From Streptacidiphilus pinicola (GTDB lineage: Bacteria; Actinomycetota; Actinomycetes; Streptomycetales; Streptomycetaceae), in NCBI RefSeq assembly GCF_003258295.1, contig NZ_QKYN01000087.1, positions 1 through 53,727 of the forward strand: a stretch of 53,727 nt of DNA, in the 5' to 3' direction. Below, one piece after another: positions 24,979 through 33,286 of the stretch. The stretch's first letter is position 1. Each line of letters opens with the position of its first letter. The notes below the pieces were generated by a model. It had not been told where the DNA came from, did no database searches, and saw nothing but the letters and a program-made list of their open reading frames with translations. The position numbers and the translations under genes were made by a program.

Positions 24979-26484
24979 ATGTCGAATGCCGCGCAGCCCG
25001 TCTGGGACCACGCCGCCTCCGCCCCCGACCGCACCGCCCTCCTTGGAACCGCAGGTCAGCGCTGGTCCTACGCCGCGCTGCGGGACCGCGCCGCCGCCGT
25101 CGCCACCCGTCTGCGGGCGGCCGGGGTCGGGGCCGGGGACCGGGTGCTGCTGATCGCCCCCTCGGTGCCGGAGTTCGTCGGGGCCTACTACGGCGTGCTG
25201 TCGATCGGGGCCGTCGCGGTCACCGCCAACACCATGGCGACCACGCCGGAGCTGGAGTACATCGGCTCGGACGCCGGGATCTCGCTGGTGCTCGGCTGGC
25301 ACGCGGTCGCCCCCGCCCCGGCCGCCGCCGCGGAGGCCGTCGGCGTCCCGTACTGGCCGCTGCACGCGGAGCTGGCGGGCCTGGCGACGCCGATCGCGAC
25401 GCCGGAGACCCCGCTCGACATCGCCGCCGACGAGACCGCGGCCATCCTCTACACCTCGGGCCCCACCGGCCGTCCCAAGGGCGCCATGCTCACCCACGGC
25501 AACCTGCACGCCTGCGCGTCGATCTACCAGCGGATCCACCGCCTCGGCCCCGAGGACCGCGCCGGGACCGCGCTGCCGCTCTTCCACGTCTACGGCCAGG
25601 CCTGCATCCTCGCCACCACGATGCGCGTCGGCGCCTCGCTCTCGCTGCTCCCCCGCTTCGACCCGCGCGAGATGCTGGCACTGATCCGCGACCACCGGCT
25701 CACCACCACCGCCGGCGTGCCGACGATGTGGAACGCGCTGCTGCACGCGTCCGACGACGCCGACCCCGCCGACTTCGCCTCGCTGCGCCTCGCCTCCTCC
25801 GGCGGCGCCTCGCTGCCGGGCGAGGTCAAGCGGACCTTCGAGGAGCGGTTCGGCTGCACCATCCTGGAGGGCTACGGCCTGACCGAGACCACGGGCTCGG
25901 CCACGGTGCAGGTGGCCGGGCGCGCGTCGGTCGGCTCGGTCGGGGCCGCGATCCCGGGCTGCGAGGTCGAGATCCGGGCGCTGGACGGTGCGGCCGTCGC
26001 CGCCGGCGAGATCGGCGAGGTCCACGTGCGCGGGCCCGTGGTGATGAAGGGCTACTGGGGCCGTCCCGAGGCCACCGCCGAGGTGCTGCACGACGGTTGG
26101 CTCGCCACCGGCGACCTGGGCCGGATCGACGAGGCCGGGGAGCTGTACATCGTCGACCGCAAGAAGGAGCTGGTGATCCGCGGCGGCTACAACGTCTACC
26201 CGCGGGAGGTCGAGGAGGTCCTCTACGAGCACCCCGACGTCGTCGAGGCGGCCGTCGTCGGGGTGCCGCACTACCACTACGGCGAGGAGGTCGCCGCCGC
26301 CGTCGCGCTGCGCCCCGGCGCCACGCCCGACGCGGCGGCGCTGCGCGCCTGGGCCAAGGAGCGGCTCTCCGCCTACAAGGTGCCGCATCTGGTGGCCTTC
26401 GTCGACACGCTCCCCAAGGGCGCGACCGGCAAGATCCTCAAGCGCGCCATCGACCGCTCCCTCTTCGACGGCGTGGGCGAGTGA
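24979..26484 (+). CDS. Acyl-CoA synthetase (AMP-forming) with altered P-loop
   Basis: A 501-residue ANL-superfamily ligase that activates a carboxylic acid via an acyl-adenylate to the CoA thioester. Later motifs are canonical: LEGYGLTETTGSATVQ, LATGDLGRIDEAGELYIVDR, KKELVIRGGYNVYPREVEEV and near the end PKGATGKILKRAI with the catalytic Lys. The P-loop reads YTSGPTGRPKGAML: the usual Ser/Thr after TSG is Pro, a one-base change (ACC to CCC). Activity may be lowered, or the loop tolerated. ATG 24979 follows GGAAGGAG. It feeds the dehydrogenase/MaoC pathway of the same TetR regulon. A strong terminator overlaps its stop codon. Confidence 0.88.
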   Translation: MSNAAQPVWDHAASAPDRTALLGTAGQRWSYAALRDRAAAVATRLRAAGVGAGDRVLLIAPSVPEFVGAYYGVLSIGAVAVTANTMATTPELEYIGSDAGISLVLGWHAVAPAPAAAAEAVGVPYWPLHAELAGLATPIATPETPLDIAADETAAILYTSGPTGRPKGAMLTHGNLHACASIYQRIHRLGPEDRAGTALPLFHVYGQACILATTMRVGASLSLLPRFDPREMLALIRDHRLTTTAGVPTMWNALLHASDDADPADFASLRLASSGGASLPGEVKRTFEERFGCTILEGYGLTETTGSATVQVAGRASVGSVGAAIPGCEVEIRALDGAAVAAGEIGEVHVRGPVVMKGYWGRPEATAEVLHDGWLATGDLGRIDEAGELYIVDRKKELVIRGGYNVYPREVEEVLYEHPDVVEAAVVGVPHYHYGEEVAAAVALRPGATPDAAALRAWAKERLSAYKVPHLVAFVDTLPKGATGKILKRAIDRSLFDGVGE

Positions 26485-26529
26485 CCGTGCCGCTCCGGGC
26501 GGGGCCTGCCTGCCCGGAGCGGCACGGTC
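26483..26529 (+). terminator. Strong hairpin terminator between convergent synthetase and P450 genes
   Basis: A perfect 18-bp stem (gaccgtgccgctccgggc / gcccggagcggcacggtc) around an 11-base loop. The left arm overlaps the stop codon of the synthetase. It can serve both strands, the P450 gene ending at 26542. Confidence 0.8.
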
Positions 26530-26541
26530 AGCCGTGCTGGG

Positions 26542-27747
26542 CTACCACATGACGGGCAGCCGCTCCGGCAGGCGCTTCATGTAGCCGGTGCGCCAGACCA
26601 GTTGCTCGATCGGCACGGCCAGCTCCAGCTCCGGCATCCGCTCCAGCACGGTGGTGACGGCGATCTCCGCGTGCTTGCGGCCGAGCGCCGTCGCCGGGCA
26701 GTAGTGCTGCCCGCCGCCGAAGGAGAGGTGGGCGGAGCTGTTGTCGCGGGCCGGGTCGATCGTCAGCGGGTCCGGGAAGGCGTCCGGGTCGTGGTTGGCG
26801 CCCTCCACCAGGACCAGCACCAGCTCGCCGGCGCGAACCAGGACGTCACCCAACTGCACGTCCTCCAGGGCGAGTCGGGGCAGCCCGTCGCCGATGGAGA
26901 GGTTGACGCGCAGCAGTTCCTCCACCGCCGCAGGGACCAGCTCCGGCTCGGCGCGCAGGCGGGCACGCAGCTCCGGGTTCTGAAGCAGCGTCACGAACGC
27001 CATGCTGAGGAAGCCCGCTGTGGAGACCACACCGGCGCCGAACATGGTGACGCCCACGGTGGCGAGCATCTCGTCGGTCAGGTGGTCGTACTCCCGGTCC
27101 AGCCGCAGGGCCGCGAGCTCCGCCATCAGACCCGTGGTCGCCGGGTCGTCCAGCCGCTCCGTCATGTAGGAGATGTCGCGGTCCCAGTTGAGCTTGGCGC
27201 CCGCGATCGGGCAGGCCGAGTTCATGAACGCGATGTCCAGGCTGGCCGCCAGCTTCGGCGCGTCCGCCAGCGGAATGCCGAGGATCCGGCAGTGCATGGC
27301 CTCCGAGTACGGGTTGGCGAAGCCGTGCCGCAGATCGGCGGGCGCGCCCGCCGCCAGCAGGCCGTCGACCAGGGTCGCGGCCTGCTCGCGCATCCACGCC
27401 TCCAGGCCGGGGGCCTTGGGGTTGATCGCCTTGAGCACCGCCTTGCGCAGGCCGGCCCCGGTGATGTTGCCCATGTTGTTGACGACCTCCGGCGGGATCG
27501 TCAGCGCGTACTGGCGCGGCACGCCCGGGGCGGAGGTGTCCTTCAGGCTGAACCGGCGGTCCTCCAGCACCTGCTTGCACAGCGCGTGCGAGGACACCAG
27601 CCAGGCCGGGTCCCCCGCGATGGTCCGCACCCGCTTGACGGGCTCCGCGCGCAGCTCCTCGATCTCGTCGGGCAGGCGGTCGCCGCGCCAGGAGAACGGG
27701 AAGGCGGGCAGGTCCGCCGGCTCGATCGGCAGTGTCTCAAGCGACAT
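26542..27747 (-). CDS. Cytochrome P450 paired with cyclodipeptide synthase
   Basis: A 401-residue bacterial P450. The K-helix ExxR is EELLR (Glu277-Arg280) and the haem ligand is Cys350 in [20 protein letters not shown]. The residue after the ligand is Pro rather than the usual Gly in the CxG position pattern. The I-helix reads [16 protein letters not shown] (235-250): the acid-alcohol pair used for O2 activation (usually Asp/Glu-Thr) is Val-Ser. From recall, such I-helices occur in P450s that couple diketopiperazines to each other or to nucleobases rather than hydroxylate. ATG 27747 lies inside the end of the CDPS gene (11-base overlap), so the two are co-translated. The expected substrate is the cyclodipeptide. 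Confidence 0.9.
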
Positions 27748-28465
27748 TCTGGTGTCCCCCTTCGGCGGCCGGCGTGACGATCGCGTGGCCCTGGTTGCGT
27801 GAGGCGCGCAGGCCCGAGCCGCGCGAGTAGAGCAGCTCCGCGAGCGGCAGCAGCTGGTGGTAGCAGTTGAGCGAGGACGGCACGTCGAGGATCGCCGGGC
27901 TGTCCAGGAAGAGCGGCGCCTCCGCGCAGATGTAGCGCAGACACACCTCACGCTGCAGCGACGTGGCGGCACTGCCGTCCGCCAGCACCTTGGCGGAGAG
28001 GAACACCCCCACCAACTCGTCGATGACGGACCGCAGTTCGGCGTCGGTCTCCAGCCGCTGCCAGAGCTCGTCGTGGAGTTGGCGGTAGGCGGCGTTGGCC
28101 AGGAAGTCCGACATCGCATGGGACCGGATCCGTCCCGTGCCGTCGTCGGTCTCCTCGACGGCGGTGCGCACCTTGGCGCGCACGCCGCGCAGGTTCTTGA
28201 CGGCCTTGCGCCGGGCGTCGTCCGCGCCGTAGCCGAGCGCCTCGTACATTTCGGCCACGTACAGGTCGGTGTGGACGAGGTCGACGCGCTCGAAGTTCTC
28301 CGCGCCCCAGCGGGCGAGATCCAGCAGGCGCTGCTGGGAGAAGTAACTGTTGCCCGGCGAGACCCCGATCACCGCGTGATCGCCCTCGGCCTGGATCAGG
28401 GCGCAGTGGGCCGTATAGGGCCTGACTTGGAATAAGGTCTCGGTCGCTGTTTGCAAGATCTGCAA
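27737..28465 (-). CDS. Cyclodipeptide synthase (AlbC-like, NYH subfamily)
   Basis: A 242-residue tRNA-dependent enzyme that joins two aminoacyl groups from charged tRNAs into a 2,5-diketopiperazine. The nucleophile motif is [16 protein letters not shown] with catalytic Ser36 (AlbC Ser37) and Asn39. [13 protein letters not shown] places Tyr178 and Glu182, and [10 protein letters not shown] places Tyr202 and His203, at the same numbers as in AlbC. Asn-Tyr-His assigns the NYH subfamily. Residues 83-103 form a basic patch ([16 protein letters not shown]) expected for tRNA binding. The start is TTG 28465 with a modest purine site (aaagga) about 11 bases upstream, so the N-terminus is slightly uncertain. 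The amino acids used cannot be read safely by eye. Confidence 0.93.
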
Positions 28466-28621
28466 GAGAGGGAGGGTCCTTTGCGCCGCTAGTCCCGTGG
28501 AGCCTCGTGCTCCAGGTGTGGCGGCGACACGCAGTCAAACTTCCCACACGCTCCGCTGTCAACGCCCGTCCCGTGAGGTGAGATCCGCATCCGAACCACA
28601 TGGCATGGGAGGATCGGCGAC

Positions 28622-29389
28622 GTGGCGGATGCGCAGGTGAACAGGCAGAAGGCGGCACGTTACCGGGAGCTGGCGGCAGCATTGCGGGAGGATGTCCAGA
28701 GCGGCGTCTACGGCGAGGGCGGCCGCCTGCCGAGCGAGGAGGCGCTGGCCGCCTCCCACGGCGTCTCGCGCGGCACCGTCCGTCAGGCGCTGGCACTGCT
28801 GCGCGCCGAGGGCGTGGTCACCTCCCGGCGCGGCACCCGCCGCGTCGTGCTGGAACAGCCGCGCGTGCAGAGCTTCGCGGAGCTGTCCAGCTTCACGCGC
28901 TGGGCGCGCTCGCTCGGCGAGGAGCCGGGCGGCTCCGTCCTCGACCTGCACTGGCGCGCGGCCGACGCGATCGAGGCGGACCGGCTGCGCCTGGCTCCGG
29001 GCACCCGGGTCCTGTGGGTGCTGCGGCTGCGCACGCTGGGCGGCGAGCCGGTGATGGTCGAACGGACCGTCTATCCGGAGCCGGTTGGCGCGTTGGTGGC
29101 GGCGATGCCGGCGGACACCGTCTCGGTCACCGAGCTGCTGGAGGCCCGGGGCGTGGTCCTGGCCGACGCCGACCACACCGTCGACCTCGCCTTGGCCGAC
29201 GCCGACGACGCCCGCCTTCTGGACTGCGCCCCGGCCGCTCCCCTGCTGCGCGAACGCCGCCGCACCAGCGACCCCACCGGCCTCCCGGTCGAGTGGTCGG
29301 AGGATCGCTACCGCGCGGGCACGGTGGCCTTCACCGTCCACAACTCCCTCGCCACGACGGCGCTGGCGCGCACGCGCAGCGAGGGTTAG
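28622..29389 (+). CDS. GntR-family regulator, HutC/UTRA type
   Basis: A 255-residue regulator. The N-terminal winged helix-turn-helix is ARYRELAAALREDVQSGVYG, GRLPSEEALAASHGVSRGTV, RQALALLRAEGVVTSRRGTR. The UTRA ligand domain follows (about 90-245), with VLWVLRLRTLGGEPVMVERT and later EWSEDRYRAGTVAFTVHNS, the typical UTRA ending. GTG 28622 has GGGAGGA upstream. It is divergent from the CDPS-P450 operon across 156 bases and is the best candidate for its local regulator, although no clear operator palindrome was seen there. UTRA proteins usually bind sugars, phosphosugars or amino acids. Confidence 0.86.
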   Translation: MADAQVNRQKAARYRELAAALREDVQSGVYGEGGRLPSEEALAASHGVSRGTVRQALALLRAEGVVTSRRGTRRVVLEQPRVQSFAELSSFTRWARSLGEEPGGSVLDLHWRAADAIEADRLRLAPGTRVLWVLRLRTLGGEPVMVERTVYPEPVGALVAAMPADTVSVTELLEARGVVLADADHTVDLALADADDARLLDCAPAAPLLRERRRTSDPTGLPVEWSEDRYRAGTVAFTVHNSLATTALARTRSEG

Positions 29390-30256
29390 TCAGGCGGTCT
29401 GCGGGCGGAAGACGGCAGCGTGGTCGTCGGCCCAGGTGGCGAAGGGCAGCGCCGGACGGCCGAGCAGGCGGTGGACGGTGTCGGTGGTGGGACCCGGGTG
29501 GTCGACACAGGTGCGCTGGTAGCCGAGGGCGCGGTCGGGGGCGTCGGCGGGCACGCCCTGGGCGAGCATCGCCCGGCGGACGGCCTCCGGGGTGACCTCC
29601 ACGAAGTCGAGCGGCACGCCCACGGCCTCGCCGATGATCCGAACCCGGTCGCGCTGGGTCAGCGGCGCGGGGCCGGTGAGCGCGTGGGCGGCGCCCGCGT
29701 CCTCCGGGTGAGCACCCGTCAGCGCCCGTACGGCGACGGCGGCGACGTCGCGTTCGTGGATCGGCGAGGTGGTCGCCTCCGGATAGGCGCCGCGCACCAC
29801 TCCCGTGGCCCGGATCTGCGGGGCCCAGGCGAGGCTGTTGGCCGCGAAGTCGGCGCAGCGCAGGAAGGTCCAGGGCAGCCCGGAACCGGCCGCGGCCTGC
29901 TCGACGGCGCGGAACCCGGCGGCGAAGCGCTCGTAGCCGCCGCCGTACTCGACGGTCACCGCGGAGATCACCACCACCCGCTTCGCTCCGTGCCGCGCGG
30001 CGAGCTCCAGCAGCTCGCCCGTGGCCTCCCCGACAGCGCGCGGGCTGATCAACACGGCTTCCAAGCCACCGAGTTCAGCCAACCCCTCGGCGAGCGAGGC
30101 CGGCCGGGACGGATCACCCCCGACCAGCCGGACACCCTCGGGGAGCCCGGCACTCTCCCGACTGCGGGTGACGGCAGCGACCGGCTGCCCGGCCTCGTGG
30201 AGCAGTTGGACTGCCACCCGCCCGATCGTGCCGGTGGCTCCGGTGATGACGAACAT
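29390..30256 (-). CDS. NmrA-like NAD(P)-binding protein
   Basis: A 288-residue atypical short-chain dehydrogenase of the NmrA/quinone oxidoreductase-2 type. The dinucleotide motif MFVITGATGTIGRVAVQLL starts at residue 1, with Arg31 in AVTRSRESAGLP suiting NADPH. GAKRVVVISAVTVEYGG follows, and WTFLRCADFAANSLAW is the NmrA-type segment. It is either a redox sensor or a reductase; the usual YxxxK catalytic pair is not evident. It abuts the GntR gene tail to tail with no gap. An AT-rich inverted repeat (30293-30325) lies 37 bases before its start. Confidence 0.82.
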   Translation of the reverse strand: MFVITGATGTIGRVAVQLLHEAGQPVAAVTRSRESAGLPEGVRLVGGDPSRPASLAEGLAELGGLEAVLISPRAVGEATGELLELAARHGAKRVVVISAVTVEYGGGYERFAAGFRAVEQAAAGSGLPWTFLRCADFAANSLAWAPQIRATGVVRGAYPEATTSPIHERDVAAVAVRALTGAHPEDAGAAHALTGPAPLTQRDRVRIIGEAVGVPLDFVEVTPEAVRRAMLAQGVPADAPDRALGYQRTCVDHPGPTTDTVHRLLGRPALPFATWADDHAAVFRPQTA

Positions 30257-30292
30257 GACGCACTCCCTCGCGACGTGCGGATCCAGACGTAC

Positions 30293-30325
30293 ATTACGAG
30301 AACCGTATCATATGGATCCCGTAAT
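30293..30325. promoter_or_regulatory. AT-rich inverted repeat in the NmrA-like gene promoter
   Basis: attacg at 30293-30298 and cgtaat at 30320-30325 with gaaccgtatcatatggat between them, plus an inner tacg-agaac-cgta repeat. It looks like an operator (HxlR- or TetR-like spacing), but no regulator gene of that kind is adjacent. Confidence 0.45.
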
Positions 30326-30384
30326 ACATCTCCTGCGAAGGCACTCCTCCGGGCCCGCCAAGCCCCTCGACACGCGAGGCAGTC

Positions 30385-31383
30385 TCAGCGGCCGGGCGCG
30401 CCGCCGTCGGTGAGCGGGAGCTTCGAGAGGACGGCGGCCGGAATGCCCGCGGCGGATTCGCCCCCGAACAGAAGCGGGAACAGGACGAGCACGACGAGAC
30501 CGGCCGGAATCGGCCACTTGAACCGGACTCCGGCCCACAACACCGCGCCGACCACGGCAGCGCCCACGACCAGTCGCAGGATCCCGATGACCGCGGATGC
30601 GTCCCGGGCGGGCGTCAGTCCCTTGAGGTATTTCTTCGGCAGGAGCGCCCCCGTGCGTCCCTCGGTGTGATTCACCCCTATGGAGACCAGCAGCACGGCG
30701 AGTTTGCGCACGGCGCTCTCCGGGTCCGAGTCGAGACCCGCTGCCGCCCGCCGCAGAGCGGCGACAACCAGTCGAGCGTGCTCGGCCAGGCCCCGATGAC
30801 GGAAAGAACTCCAGCGCACGGTGCCCCGCCTCCGGTGGGCGCGCAGGACCTCCCGCTCGACGTACCTGAGCCGCTCGTCGATCGCCCGCAGCTTCGCCGG
30901 CTGATCCTTCGTGCGAGCGGCGCGGAACTCGGCGCATGCGACCACGGCGCCGACCGTGGCCCGGGTCAGCCCGTAGCGGTACTGATAACTACGCCCTGGA
31001 GCCGCCCAGTTGAACAGCCGGAAGCCCTGAATGGTGCCCACCACCGCCGCCACGTTCAGGCTGACTCGGGCGACGTGTTCCGACATCGCGAACCCGAAAC
31101 CCAGTAGATGACGCGTGTCGCCCAGGATCGAATACAGGACAACGGCAAGCAGGAATGTACGCCTGGCTGCCCAGTCAGCGGCAAGCCCGAAGTGGAACAT
31201 CCATGTGCCGACCCTCAGGGCTCCAGGCGCCTTGTCCATCCCGAGCACCGGCAGCGCCCGTTCCAGCGTCCGCATCTGCTCCGCCACGGGCCCCGAGGCG
31301 TGCTCCTCCATCCGTCGCCGGGTACGCCGGCGGACCATCGCCGCACAGTGGCGAATCGCCGTACCCGCGCGCTTGCGCTGCAT
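30385..31383 (-). CDS. Membrane protein of unknown function
   Basis: A 332-residue protein with a basic N-terminus and hydrophobic segments at about 65-90 (WAARRTFLLAVVLYSILG), 105-125 (VARVSLNVAAVVGTIQGF), 265-285 (IGILRLVVGAAVVGAVLWAG) and 290-310 (PIPAGLVVLVLFPLLFGG). A long basic, helical, probably cytoplasmic middle (about 140-235) carries RAIDERLRYVEREVLRAHRR. No domain recognised and no partner genes evident. It is transcribed away from the HD-domain gene with 160 bases of non-coding sequence upstream. Confidence 0.6.
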   Translation of the reverse strand: MQRKRAGTAIRHCAAMVRRRTRRRMEEHASGPVAEQMRTLERALPVLGMDKAPGALRVGTWMFHFGLAADWAARRTFLLAVVLYSILGDTRHLLGFGFAMSEHVARVSLNVAAVVGTIQGFRLFNWAAPGRSYQYRYGLTRATVGAVVACAEFRAARTKDQPAKLRAIDERLRYVEREVLRAHRRRGTVRWSSFRHRGLAEHARLVVAALRRAAAGLDSDPESAVRKLAVLLVSIGVNHTEGRTGALLPKKYLKGLTPARDASAVIGILRLVVGAAVVGAVLWAGVRFKWPIPAGLVVLVLFPLLFGGESAAGIPAAVLSKLPLTDGGAPGR

Positions 31384-31544: not shown

Positions 31545-32105
31545 TCAGCCGCCCGCGAGCTGCGTCAGCATCCCCCGGTAGTGGTCGAAGCCCGGCACCG
31601 CCGCGCTCGCGTCCTTCGCCGCGTCGTCCCAGCGGCGCAGGCGGACGGCGTCGGCCGCGTGCGGGTCGGCCGCGAAGGCGGCGGACCCGGCCGGGTTCAT
31701 CGGGCCGCCCTGGAGGGAGAGGGTGTGGACGGAGGCCGGGGACAGGAGGGCGAAGTAGGACGGCTCGGTCGCGCAGAGGTAGCGCTTCGCGGCGACGTGG
31801 AGGCGGATGGGCTCGGTGACGGCCGGGCCGAACCAGGGGGCGAGCCACTCCGCGCCCTGGTGGCTGTGGCGGTTGTCGCGGGCGCCGGACATCAGCTCGC
31901 GCCCGTGGACCGCGCCGCGGAAGTGGCCGACGTCGTGGAGGAGCGCGGCGGCGACCAGCGCCGGCGGGGCGTCCTCGGCGGCGGCGAGCGCGGCGGCCTG
32001 GAGCATGTGCTCGGCCTGGGTGACGTCCTCGCCGAGGTAGTCCTCGGCGCCCTCGCCCTCGAAGAGGGCGGCCAGGGTGTCCACGACCTGGTACGGCGTC
32101 AGCAT
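31545..32105 (-). CDS. HD-domain iron oxygenase, PhnZ/TmpB-like (C-P bond cleavage)
   Basis: A 186-residue HD-domain protein whose residues line up one-for-one with PhnZ, the mixed-valence di-iron oxygenase that splits 1-hydroxy-2-aminoethylphosphonate. Seen here are Tyr23 and Glu26 (YLGEDV), His33 (AEHMLQAA), His57-Asp58 (LLHDVGHF), His80/His82 (NRHSHQGAEW), His103 and Lys107 (LHVAAKRYLC) and Asp160 (RRWDDAA). PhnZ numbers as I recall them are each one higher. The segment LSPASVHTLSLQGGPM is also typical. ATG 32105 overlaps the stop of the dioxygenase gene by seven bases. Together they match the TmpA-TmpB order: hydroxylation, then oxidative C-P cleavage to phosphate. A plain HD phosphohydrolase is less likely. 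Confidence 0.8.
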   Translation of the reverse strand: MLTPYQVVDTLAALFEGEGAEDYLGEDVTQAEHMLQAAALAAAEDAPPALVAAALLHDVGHFRGAVHGRELMSGARDNRHSHQGAEWLAPWFGPAVTEPIRLHVAAKRYLCATEPSYFALLSPASVHTLSLQGGPMNPAGSAAFAADPHAADAVRLRRWDDAAKDASAAVPGFDHYRGMLTQLAGG

Positions 32106-33172
32106 GCCTGCGCCTCCTTGCGGCGCAGCACGGCGACCGTGCTGAACAGGCCGTCCAGGTCGGCGTAGCAGCCCTGGAGGTGCCGCGCGCCGCCGCGCGC
32201 GAAGGCGGTGCGGGCGTGGAACAGGCGGGTGTTGTCGAAGATCAGGCAGTCGCCCGGCGCCAGCCGGAAGTCCAGCTGCCGATCCGGTTCGAGCAGCAGC
32301 CGCGCGAACGCGCGGTAGCCGGCGTAGAAGGCCTCGGTCTGCGTGGCCGGGAGGCGGAGCGTGCCGAGCCCGCGGTTGTTGAACCGCACCTCGCGGATGC
32401 GGCCCGCCGGGTCGGTGCCGATCAGCGGGCGGTGCGCGCTCAGCTCGGTGACGTCGTCACGGAAGACGAACGGCACCACCGTGCCGGTCAGCGCCGCGAA
32501 GGCGTCGGCGTCCCGCTCGCGCAGCGCCGCAGCGGCCGCGAAGCCGTCGACCAGGCCGGAGTCGCCGCCCTCGGCGTCGTTGACCAGGCAGTGCAGCAGC
32601 TGCAGCGTCGGGACCGGGTCGCGGTAGGGGTTGTCGGTGTGCGGGGTGATCGCGACGTTGGTGAAGGCGAGGTTGTTCGGCCGCTCCTCCTCGCGGACCT
32701 CGAACTGCGCGCCGTAGTTGGTCTCGCGCACGTAGCCGAAGCTGCGCGCCACCTCCCGCGACTGGCCGTCGCGCACCGGCACGTCCCGCAGCAGGCAGAA
32801 GCCGAGCCGGGCGACGGCCTCCAGCATGCGCAGCCGCTCGGCGTCGTCGGCGAGGTACGCGTCCCAGGACGCCTCGGGCAGGCCCTCGGCCAGGGACGCG
32901 GCGCTCCCCCACAGGTCCTTGGCGTCCTCGGTGCGCGGGTCCGGCTCGGCGGGGCGGCCGAGCCACTCGGCCGAGTAGCGGGAGACGTGGCCGTCGGGCG
33001 CCCAGACGACCTCCCAGCCCTCGACGCCGTCCAGCTCGCGGACGGTCCCGAGAGCGAGTGACTCCGGCAGGTCGGTGATCTGGTGGAGCTTCTGGCCGGT
33101 CAGCGGATCACGGCAGTCCGGACAGGCGCAGTTGTCCCGCAGCCACAGGGCGGGGACGTCGGCAGGCAGCAT
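32099..33172 (-). CDS. Fe(II)/2-oxoglutarate dioxygenase, TmpA/gamma-butyrobetaine hydroxylase-like
   Basis: A 357-residue dioxygenase. The N-terminal zinc-binding GBBH-like domain shows CACPDC (Cys15, Cys17, Cys20) and His30 (KLHQITDL). The TauD-type catalytic domain (about 110-357) has the iron triad His178-Asp180 (AITPHTDNPY) and His319 (FDNTRLFHART), with a 2-oxoglutarate-binding Arg nearby (ARGGARHLQG). The family includes gamma-butyrobetaine and trimethyllysine hydroxylases and TmpA, which hydroxylates trimethylaminoethylphosphonate. Coupling to a PhnZ-like gene favours a phosphonate substrate. ATG 33172 has GAGGAGG upstream; the longer frame upstream is not protein-like. A palindrome lies 21 bases before the start. 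Confidence 0.85.
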   Translation of the reverse strand: MLPADVPALWLRDNCACPDCRDPLTGQKLHQITDLPESLALGTVRELDGVEGWEVVWAPDGHVSRYSAEWLGRPAEPDPRTEDAKDLWGSAASLAEGLPEASWDAYLADDAERLRMLEAVARLGFCLLRDVPVRDGQSREVARSFGYVRETNYGAQFEVREEERPNNLAFTNVAITPHTDNPYRDPVPTLQLLHCLVNDAEGGDSGLVDGFAAAAALRERDADAFAALTGTVVPFVFRDDVTELSAHRPLIGTDPAGRIREVRFNNRGLGTLRLPATQTEAFYAGYRAFARLLLEPDRQLDFRLAPGDCLIFDNTRLFHARTAFARGGARHLQGCYADLDGLFSTVAVLRRKEAQAC

Positions 33173-33192
33173 GGGCCCTCCTCGGGTCGGCC

Positions 33193-33210
33193 AAGTTGTA
33201 TAGCCAACTT
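33193..33210. promoter_or_regulatory. Palindrome in the dioxygenase promoter
   Basis: aagttg-tatagc-caactt, an 18-bp inverted repeat 21 bases upstream of the dioxygenase ATG. Its G-T-TA-AC layout resembles operators of HutC-type GntR proteins. No regulator gene is adjacent. Confidence 0.5.
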
Positions 33211-33286
33211 TGCCTCGGCGCCGACGGCCACAGCAAGGAACGGCCGAGTGAACGACAGGCCAAGCCGTGGCGAAGCGCACGGCTGC

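Follow-up and report, generated by a model that had tools for sequence, protein, structure and literature searches.

The window analysed here is a 53,727-nucleotide stretch of Streptacidiphilus pinicola DNA (contig NZ_QKYN01000087.1). It harbors a cyclodipeptide synthase (CDPS) gene followed directly by a cytochrome P450 gene (Table 1). Within the window no start codon precedes the CDPS TTG in its frame, and four relatives retain both this codon and a second TTG nine bases further along. The genome, which comprises 8.43 Mb in 281 contigs and is 98.65% complete, yields one CDPS match only and no second CDPS.

Table 1. Features at and around the CDPS-P450 locus, in window coordinates
Feature	Position	Strand	Remarks
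Cyclodipeptide synthase (CDPS), probable cyclo-L-Tyr-L-Tyr synthase	27737..28465	minus	242 aa, TTG start
Cytochrome P450, GymB-type, CYP121 relative	26542..27747	minus	401 aa, ATG start
Overlap of CDPS stop and P450 start, 11 bases	27737..27747	minus	overlap in 29/30 public loci
GntR/UTRA (HutC/PhnF-type) regulator, probably outside the pathway	28622..29389	plus	PF00392 + PF07702
TmpB/PhnZ-like HD-domain oxygenase, not gym pathway	31545..32105	minus	TIGR03276, 222.5 bits (cut-off 214.6)
TmpA-like 2-oxoglutarate dioxygenase (TauD-type), not gym pathway	32099..33280	minus	NF049936, 401.1 bits (cut-off 400)
CDPS-GntR intergenic region, presumed to contain the gym promoter	28466..28621		strongly conserved in the window and four other Streptacidiphilus sequences
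Long G+C-rich hairpin between the convergent P450 and AMP-ligase gene ends	26483..26529	minus	68-base fold

The CDPS matches PF16715 with 283.6 bits (cut-off 27) and the NCBIfam cyclodityrosine synthase model NF052540 with 411.1 bits (cut-off 300). As the first-pass annotation had claimed, it is an NYH-type enzyme with a complete catalytic set, all six residues (Ser36, Asn39, Tyr178, Glu182, Tyr202, and His203 in its own numbering) being found where they had been placed. Its top PDB match is 2x9q (308 bits), which we take to be Rv2275, and AlbC scores 141 bits. The two substrate pockets read VGVTMLFN (P1) and LVFAQLP (P2). In the printed motif table of PMC5816076, the enzymes that produce cyclo(L-Tyr-L-Tyr) (cYY), CDPSs 94–97, have the motifs VG[VI]TMLFN and L-x-[FY]-x-QLP. 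The text of that table carries no row numbers and its first four rows were taken as the cYY set; the mapping of the P2 columns is likewise our own, checked on the Streptacidiphilus melanogenes locus L008, where it yields the printed motif LAYSQLP. When the pocket is aligned with characterized NYH enzymes, a comparison already proposed in the first-pass annotation, the window P1 falls among the printed Tyr-Tyr motifs. The window CDPS thus matches the cYY group at both pockets, with Asn at position 8 of P1 and L.[FY].QLP in P2 (PMC5816076). Its P2 residues agree with those of the printed Tyr-Tyr enzymes wherever these are invariant; Val155 and Ala159 are absent from the four printed motifs, at positions that are variable there.

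The CDPS of L008 is 87.2% identical to that of the window and, from its species name and motif, we infer it to be CDPS 95. Expressed in E. coli, CDPS 95 produced 59.6% cYY, 22.2% cYA, and 16.3% cYF (PMC5816076). It is a close-relative counterpart of the window enzyme with the same P1, whereas its printed P2 has Ala-Tyr-Ser at the residues where the window has Val-Phe-Ala. By these sequence comparisons the window CDPS is probably a cyclo(L-Tyr-L-Tyr) synthase.

The P450 matches PF00067 with 78.4 bits (cut-off 22.8). Its best PDB match is GymB1 (8q6z, 674 bits), which from its name we take to be an enzyme of the published gym loci, followed by 8q6x (578 bits, named just “Cytochrome P450”), CYP121 (551 bits), 9o4d (523 bits, a second “P450 121” entry), and PtmB (499 bits). 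The dimerases NascB, NzeB, AspB, and TtpB1 score 183 bits or less. The enzyme belongs with the CDPS-linked P450s, as had been anticipated. Against the NCBIfam model of CDPS-associated P450s, TIGR04538, it reaches 84.3 bits, far under the cut-off of 500. Identity is 78.1% to GymB1 over 388 residues, 70.1% to 8q6x over 384, and 62.5% to CYP121 over 387. At 24 of 25 listed positions the window P450 has the residue of GymB1, the exception being Val for Ile at 236 (CYP121 numbering, as throughout for the P450). The ligand of CYP121 structure 3G5H is presumably cYY. Sixteen positions are printed as lying within 5 Å of that ligand (PMC11084333); the window agrees with GymB1 at all 16 and with CYP121 at 11. 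At the other five, 62, 78, 280, 385, and 386, the window, GymB1, and 8q6x share Leu, Ile, Ile, Met, and Lys, whereas CYP121 has Met, Val, Phe, Gln, and Arg. Gln385 and Arg386 are reported at the substrate in CYP121 (PMC11084333), and the window P450 lacks both, having Met385 and Lys386 instead.

In a P450 tree with two further P450s from the window's genome as outgroup, the only firm grouping of the window sequence is that with four Streptacidiphilus sequences (100/100). Its order relative to GymB1, 8q6x, and CYP121 is unsupported and 20 of 36 inner branches are open, because the outgroup branches are too long and the bootstrap did not converge. Rows with cut-off ends, duplicates, and unrelated sequences (L017, L048, L038, L040–L043, and L045) were dropped from this tree, and the window's own rows (L001, L002, and L037) were also left out.

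With the P450 ATG starting at 27747 and the last base of the CDPS stop codon at 27737, the genes share the 11 bases that had been noted at first pass. Among the 30 public loci the two genes overlap by 4 bases in 21, by 11 in seven, and by 14 in one. The candidate P450 start that overlaps the CDPS end is ATG in 26 loci and GTG in L023, L025, and L027. L030 has no overlap because its CDPS frame ends early. The overlap exceeds chance expectation across the public loci, and translational coupling of the CDPS and the P450 through it is probable from the gene layout. In L030, L060, and L044/L048 the gym CDPS frame is short or split while the P450 frame is open, a pattern that could reflect sequencing error or decay.

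Of the 30 public loci and the window, all 31 have the CDPS cluster and 30 have the P450 cluster; the missing P450 is that of L017, which runs off its contig. The all-against-all list of neighbours also contains many spurious ORFs. Further true neighbours are shared within groups, for example among 19 Streptomyces loci or among the five GntR-bearing Streptacidiphilus loci, and none occurs in all 31. Eight upstream neighbours, one per locus, were scanned: six differ in kind, and those of L030 and L033 are both aspartokinase-like. The 19 Streptomyces loci (L012–L023, L025–L027, L029, L031, L032, and L034) have a conserved divergent gene upstream of the gym CDPS, which ends 146–220 bases from the reference point in 18 of them and is more distant in L013. 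The one scanned, from L012, is fructosamine-kinase-like (PF03881) and differs from the Streptacidiphilus neighbour.

No cyclodipeptide oxidase, prenyltransferase, or methyltransferase was found among the 12 proteins scanned between 21.3 and 33.3 kb, in agreement with the first-pass annotation, which had seen none adjacent; two of these proteins, MaoC and acyl-CoA dehydrogenase, were scanned against NCBIfam only. The other neighbours are an AMP ligase, an alpha/beta hydrolase, MaoC, a TetR regulator, and an acyl-CoA dehydrogenase, which look like genes of fatty-acid or acyl-CoA metabolism. Those covered by the search, all but the hydrolase, are kept in the four nearest species. The hairpin between the convergent P450 and AMP-ligase ends has a folding energy of −51.4 kcal/mol, which corresponds to a z-score of −6.8 relative to 200 shuffled sequences. 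Although it lacks a T run and is not called by a consensus terminator scan, it possibly serves as a two-way terminator for both transcripts. On the other side of the pair, the gap between the CDPS and the GntR gene contains TTGACA at 28562–28557 (minus strand), and a sigma-70 consensus scan of this region gave no full match. A search of the gap for inverted repeats gave one candidate, with 6-bp arms (28498–28514).

The nearest relatives of the locus are from Streptacidiphilus species. In a genus sample of 14 genomes, the window's own and 13 others, NF052540 is matched over its cut-off in ten, and the same ten contain a P450 match at E ≤ 1e-100. Two of these ten carry caveats: the CDPS of G013, a 76% complete genome, is divided between two frames, and contamination of G004 amounts to 10%. 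In a wider, evenly drawn sample of 297 Streptomycetaceae genomes, with six candidates scored per genome, 84 contain a P450 at the same threshold. The resulting 87 matches fall into two classes separated by a gap, 45 at 67–100% identity and 42 at 56–63%. Residues were read in hand-picked members, 29 of the upper 45, not counting the window, and 20 of the lower 42. All 29 upper-class P450s have Thr229 and Met385, and the associated CDPS has the P1 motif VG[VI]TMLFN in 26; in the other three (L054, L060, and L063) the motif is only partly covered. In the lower class, all 20 P450s have Ser229 and 19 have Ile385, and the 17 members with a CDPS in the fetched stretch have P1 LGVALFF- (15) or LGVAVFF- (2). 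Enzymes that accept Trp have the printed motifs LGVALFFA, -S, and -H (PMC5816076). Thus, among the relatives sampled, Thr/Met at 229/385 occurs beside synthases of predicted Tyr type and Ser/Ile beside those of predicted Trp type. The window has the upper-class pocket and the upper-class 229/385 residues, and its pair therefore falls in the tyrosine class on both proteins.

Several loci stand apart from this pattern. Among the gym-type loci, L024 (P1 LGLTLLFN) and L011 (VGVTVLFN) are a milder exception. In L085, L091, and L093, CYP121-like P450s with 55–63% identity have no recognizable CDPS in the approximately 4 kb fetched. Their pocket residues are altered, for instance with Pro at 76 in L085 and L093 and His at 168 in L093, and these three P450s are possibly orphans with a different substrate. 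L045, L046, and L047 hold further CDPSs from the genus, with 28–33% identity to that of the window and other pocket motifs; in L045 the CDPS is followed by a P450 with 28% identity to the window's.

A widely distributed two-gene gym BGC has been found by genome mining in Streptomyces, and six gym loci expressed in S. albus gave mycocyclosin together with guatyromycines A (guaninyl) and B (hypoxanthine), according to the review from which we take the product claim for these loci (PMC10092475). The same source describes gym P450s as both intramolecular oxidases and nucleobase transferases. The window has the same arrangement, a cYY-type CDPS with a GymB-type P450 directly after it and no further tailoring gene, and it shares with the published BGC the GymB1 likeness described above (78.1% identity, 16 of 16 printed pocket positions). 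It differs in its Streptacidiphilus host and in Val236. Building on the family, pocket residues, gene order, overlap, and distribution of the pair, which are observed directly, we consider it very probable that the two genes form a gym unit producing cYY and then mycocyclosin and adducts with guanine or hypoxanthine.

In this proposal, for which both reactions are predicted from published homologues, the CDPS would join the amino acids of two tyrosyl-tRNAs into cyclo(L-Tyr-L-Tyr), with cyclo(Tyr-Ala) and cyclo(Tyr-Phe) as expected minor products. The P450, probably coupled to it in translation, would oxidize cYY by a radical route, forming a C-C bond between its two phenol rings to give mycocyclosin, and would also join one ring to free guanine or hypoxanthine to give products of the guatyromycine type. 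Redox partners for the P450 would come from elsewhere in the genome. The first-pass annotation had expected a cyclodipeptide changed by this P450 alone; the minimal two-gene unit stands, whereas the nucleobase coupling reported for gym P450s (PMC10092475) had been omitted. It had also held that neither amino-acid specificity nor product could be read by eye. This was too cautious: cYY and the product class are predictable because the CDPS and the P450 both closely resemble studied enzymes.

The pair could instead produce mycocyclosin only, as CYP121, the mycobacterial mycocyclosin synthase, does with its CDPS, without nucleobase coupling. Rv2275 and CYP121 are described as a two-gene BGC (PMC7954767), and both window proteins are homologous to this pathway (308 bits for the CDPS, 62.5% identity within the same family for the P450). 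Asn85, Phe168, Trp182, Thr229, and Ser237 of CYP121 are kept in the window. At the five of the 16 printed pocket positions where the window differs from CYP121, however, it sides with GymB1 and 8q6x; if these residues bear on nucleobase coupling, they speak against a product restricted to mycocyclosin, which we consider unlikely. A tryptophan cyclodipeptide as the P450 substrate, coupled to a nucleobase by a GutD/PtmB-like enzyme or dimerized by a NascB/NzeB-like one, is extremely improbable. PtmB is recognizably related at 499 bits and is described as a nucleobase-coupling P450 acting on cWW (PMC13122648). The guanitrypmycin pathways of GutD and PtmB resemble the window in combining a CDPS with a CYP121-like P450 and nucleobase coupling, but they use tryptophan substrates (PMC13122648). 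The window CDPS has a pocket of Tyr type, and the window P450 has Thr229 and Met385, as do all 29 other gym-class P450s examined, rather than the Ser229 and Ile385 of the lower class. In the Streptomycetaceae relatives that we took to be of the GutD/PtmB kind, both the CDPS pockets and the P450 residues at 229/385 differ from those of the window.

The gym reading of the pair leaves its regulation to be considered, as the first-pass annotation had put forward the divergent GntR gene as the switch. Against NCBIfam the GntR protein scores highest with PhnF (102.9 bits, under the cut-off of 156.8). Beyond it lie genes resembling an organophosphonate-catabolic pair (31545–33280), which overlap by 7 bases. 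The nearest structure to the HD oxygenase is TmpB (PDB 6npa, 150.9 bits), although it fails the TmpB equivalog model (204.5 bits against 300); that to the dioxygenase, which barely passes the TmpA model, is TmpA (PDB 6npb, 292.4 bits). Between the GntR and HD oxygenase genes (29390–31383) are an NmrA-like gene and a 332-aa ORF, the latter with no Pfam or NCBIfam match; both are unmatched in the four closest species' loci, where the remaining neighbourhood is shared.

A GntR orthologue (at least 67% identity) and a TmpA-like gene occur together in ten genomes of the genus, at most 6 kb apart in nine and 13.6 kb apart in G001. The pairing is imperfect: G005 has a TmpA-like gene with a 49% GntR match, and G013 has a GntR match without a TmpA-like gene. 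In G004, G009, G011, and G012 the orthologue (67–80% identity) lies 0.6–0.8 kb from the TmpA-like gene, and the 12 kb fetched around it contain no gym CDPS. The gym CDPS model finds no match in G012, and G004, G009, and G011 carry their gym CDPS on a separate contig or at a distance of over 1 Mb. The GntR gene adjoins gym in five of the ten gym-bearing genomes of the genus. Of the public loci, some of which have short flanks, 26 of 30 lack a match to it, and it is present beside gym in the four closest species only; outside the genus there is a match in 0 of 25 public loci, several with flanks below 10 kb. From these gene associations, the GntR protein is probably the regulator of the TmpA/TmpB-like phosphonate pair, with the HD oxygenase a likely target. 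The simplest reading is a regulator of the phosphonate genes next to which gym landed in one clade.

Control of the gym pair by the GntR protein, in which a phosphonate-type signal would switch on cYY metabolism, is consistent with the divergent orientation and with the 156-bp gap, whose sequence is strongly conserved across the window and four other Streptacidiphilus loci. As these species also retain most of the surrounding genes, conservation of the gap says little. Such control is unlikely given the four genomes in which the orthologue sits by a TmpA-like gene without adjacent gym, and given the 26 public loci, some short-flanked, that have no GntR match. The role of switch suggested at first pass is thus not borne out, as orthologues pair with TmpA/TmpB-like genes where gym is elsewhere or absent. 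A capture of gym by the GntR protein in one Streptacidiphilus clade, which would place the production of cYY-nucleobase conjugates under a phosphonate or phosphate-limitation signal, we regard as very unlikely.

As a two-gene pathway of this kind has already been described in Streptomyces, the locus is an ordinary new copy of it: most likely a genuine gym-type cYY pathway of Streptacidiphilus, conserved and readily predicted. It can be annotated as a gym-type cYY/mycocyclosin/guatyromycine unit, which answers most of the apparently open question of its product, and the divergent GntR gene should not be read as its switch. In the Streptomycetaceae sampled, residues 229 and 385 of the P450 covary with the Tyr-type or Trp-type pocket of the CDPS, which could provide a small, testable rule for the annotation of CDPS-P450 pairs.
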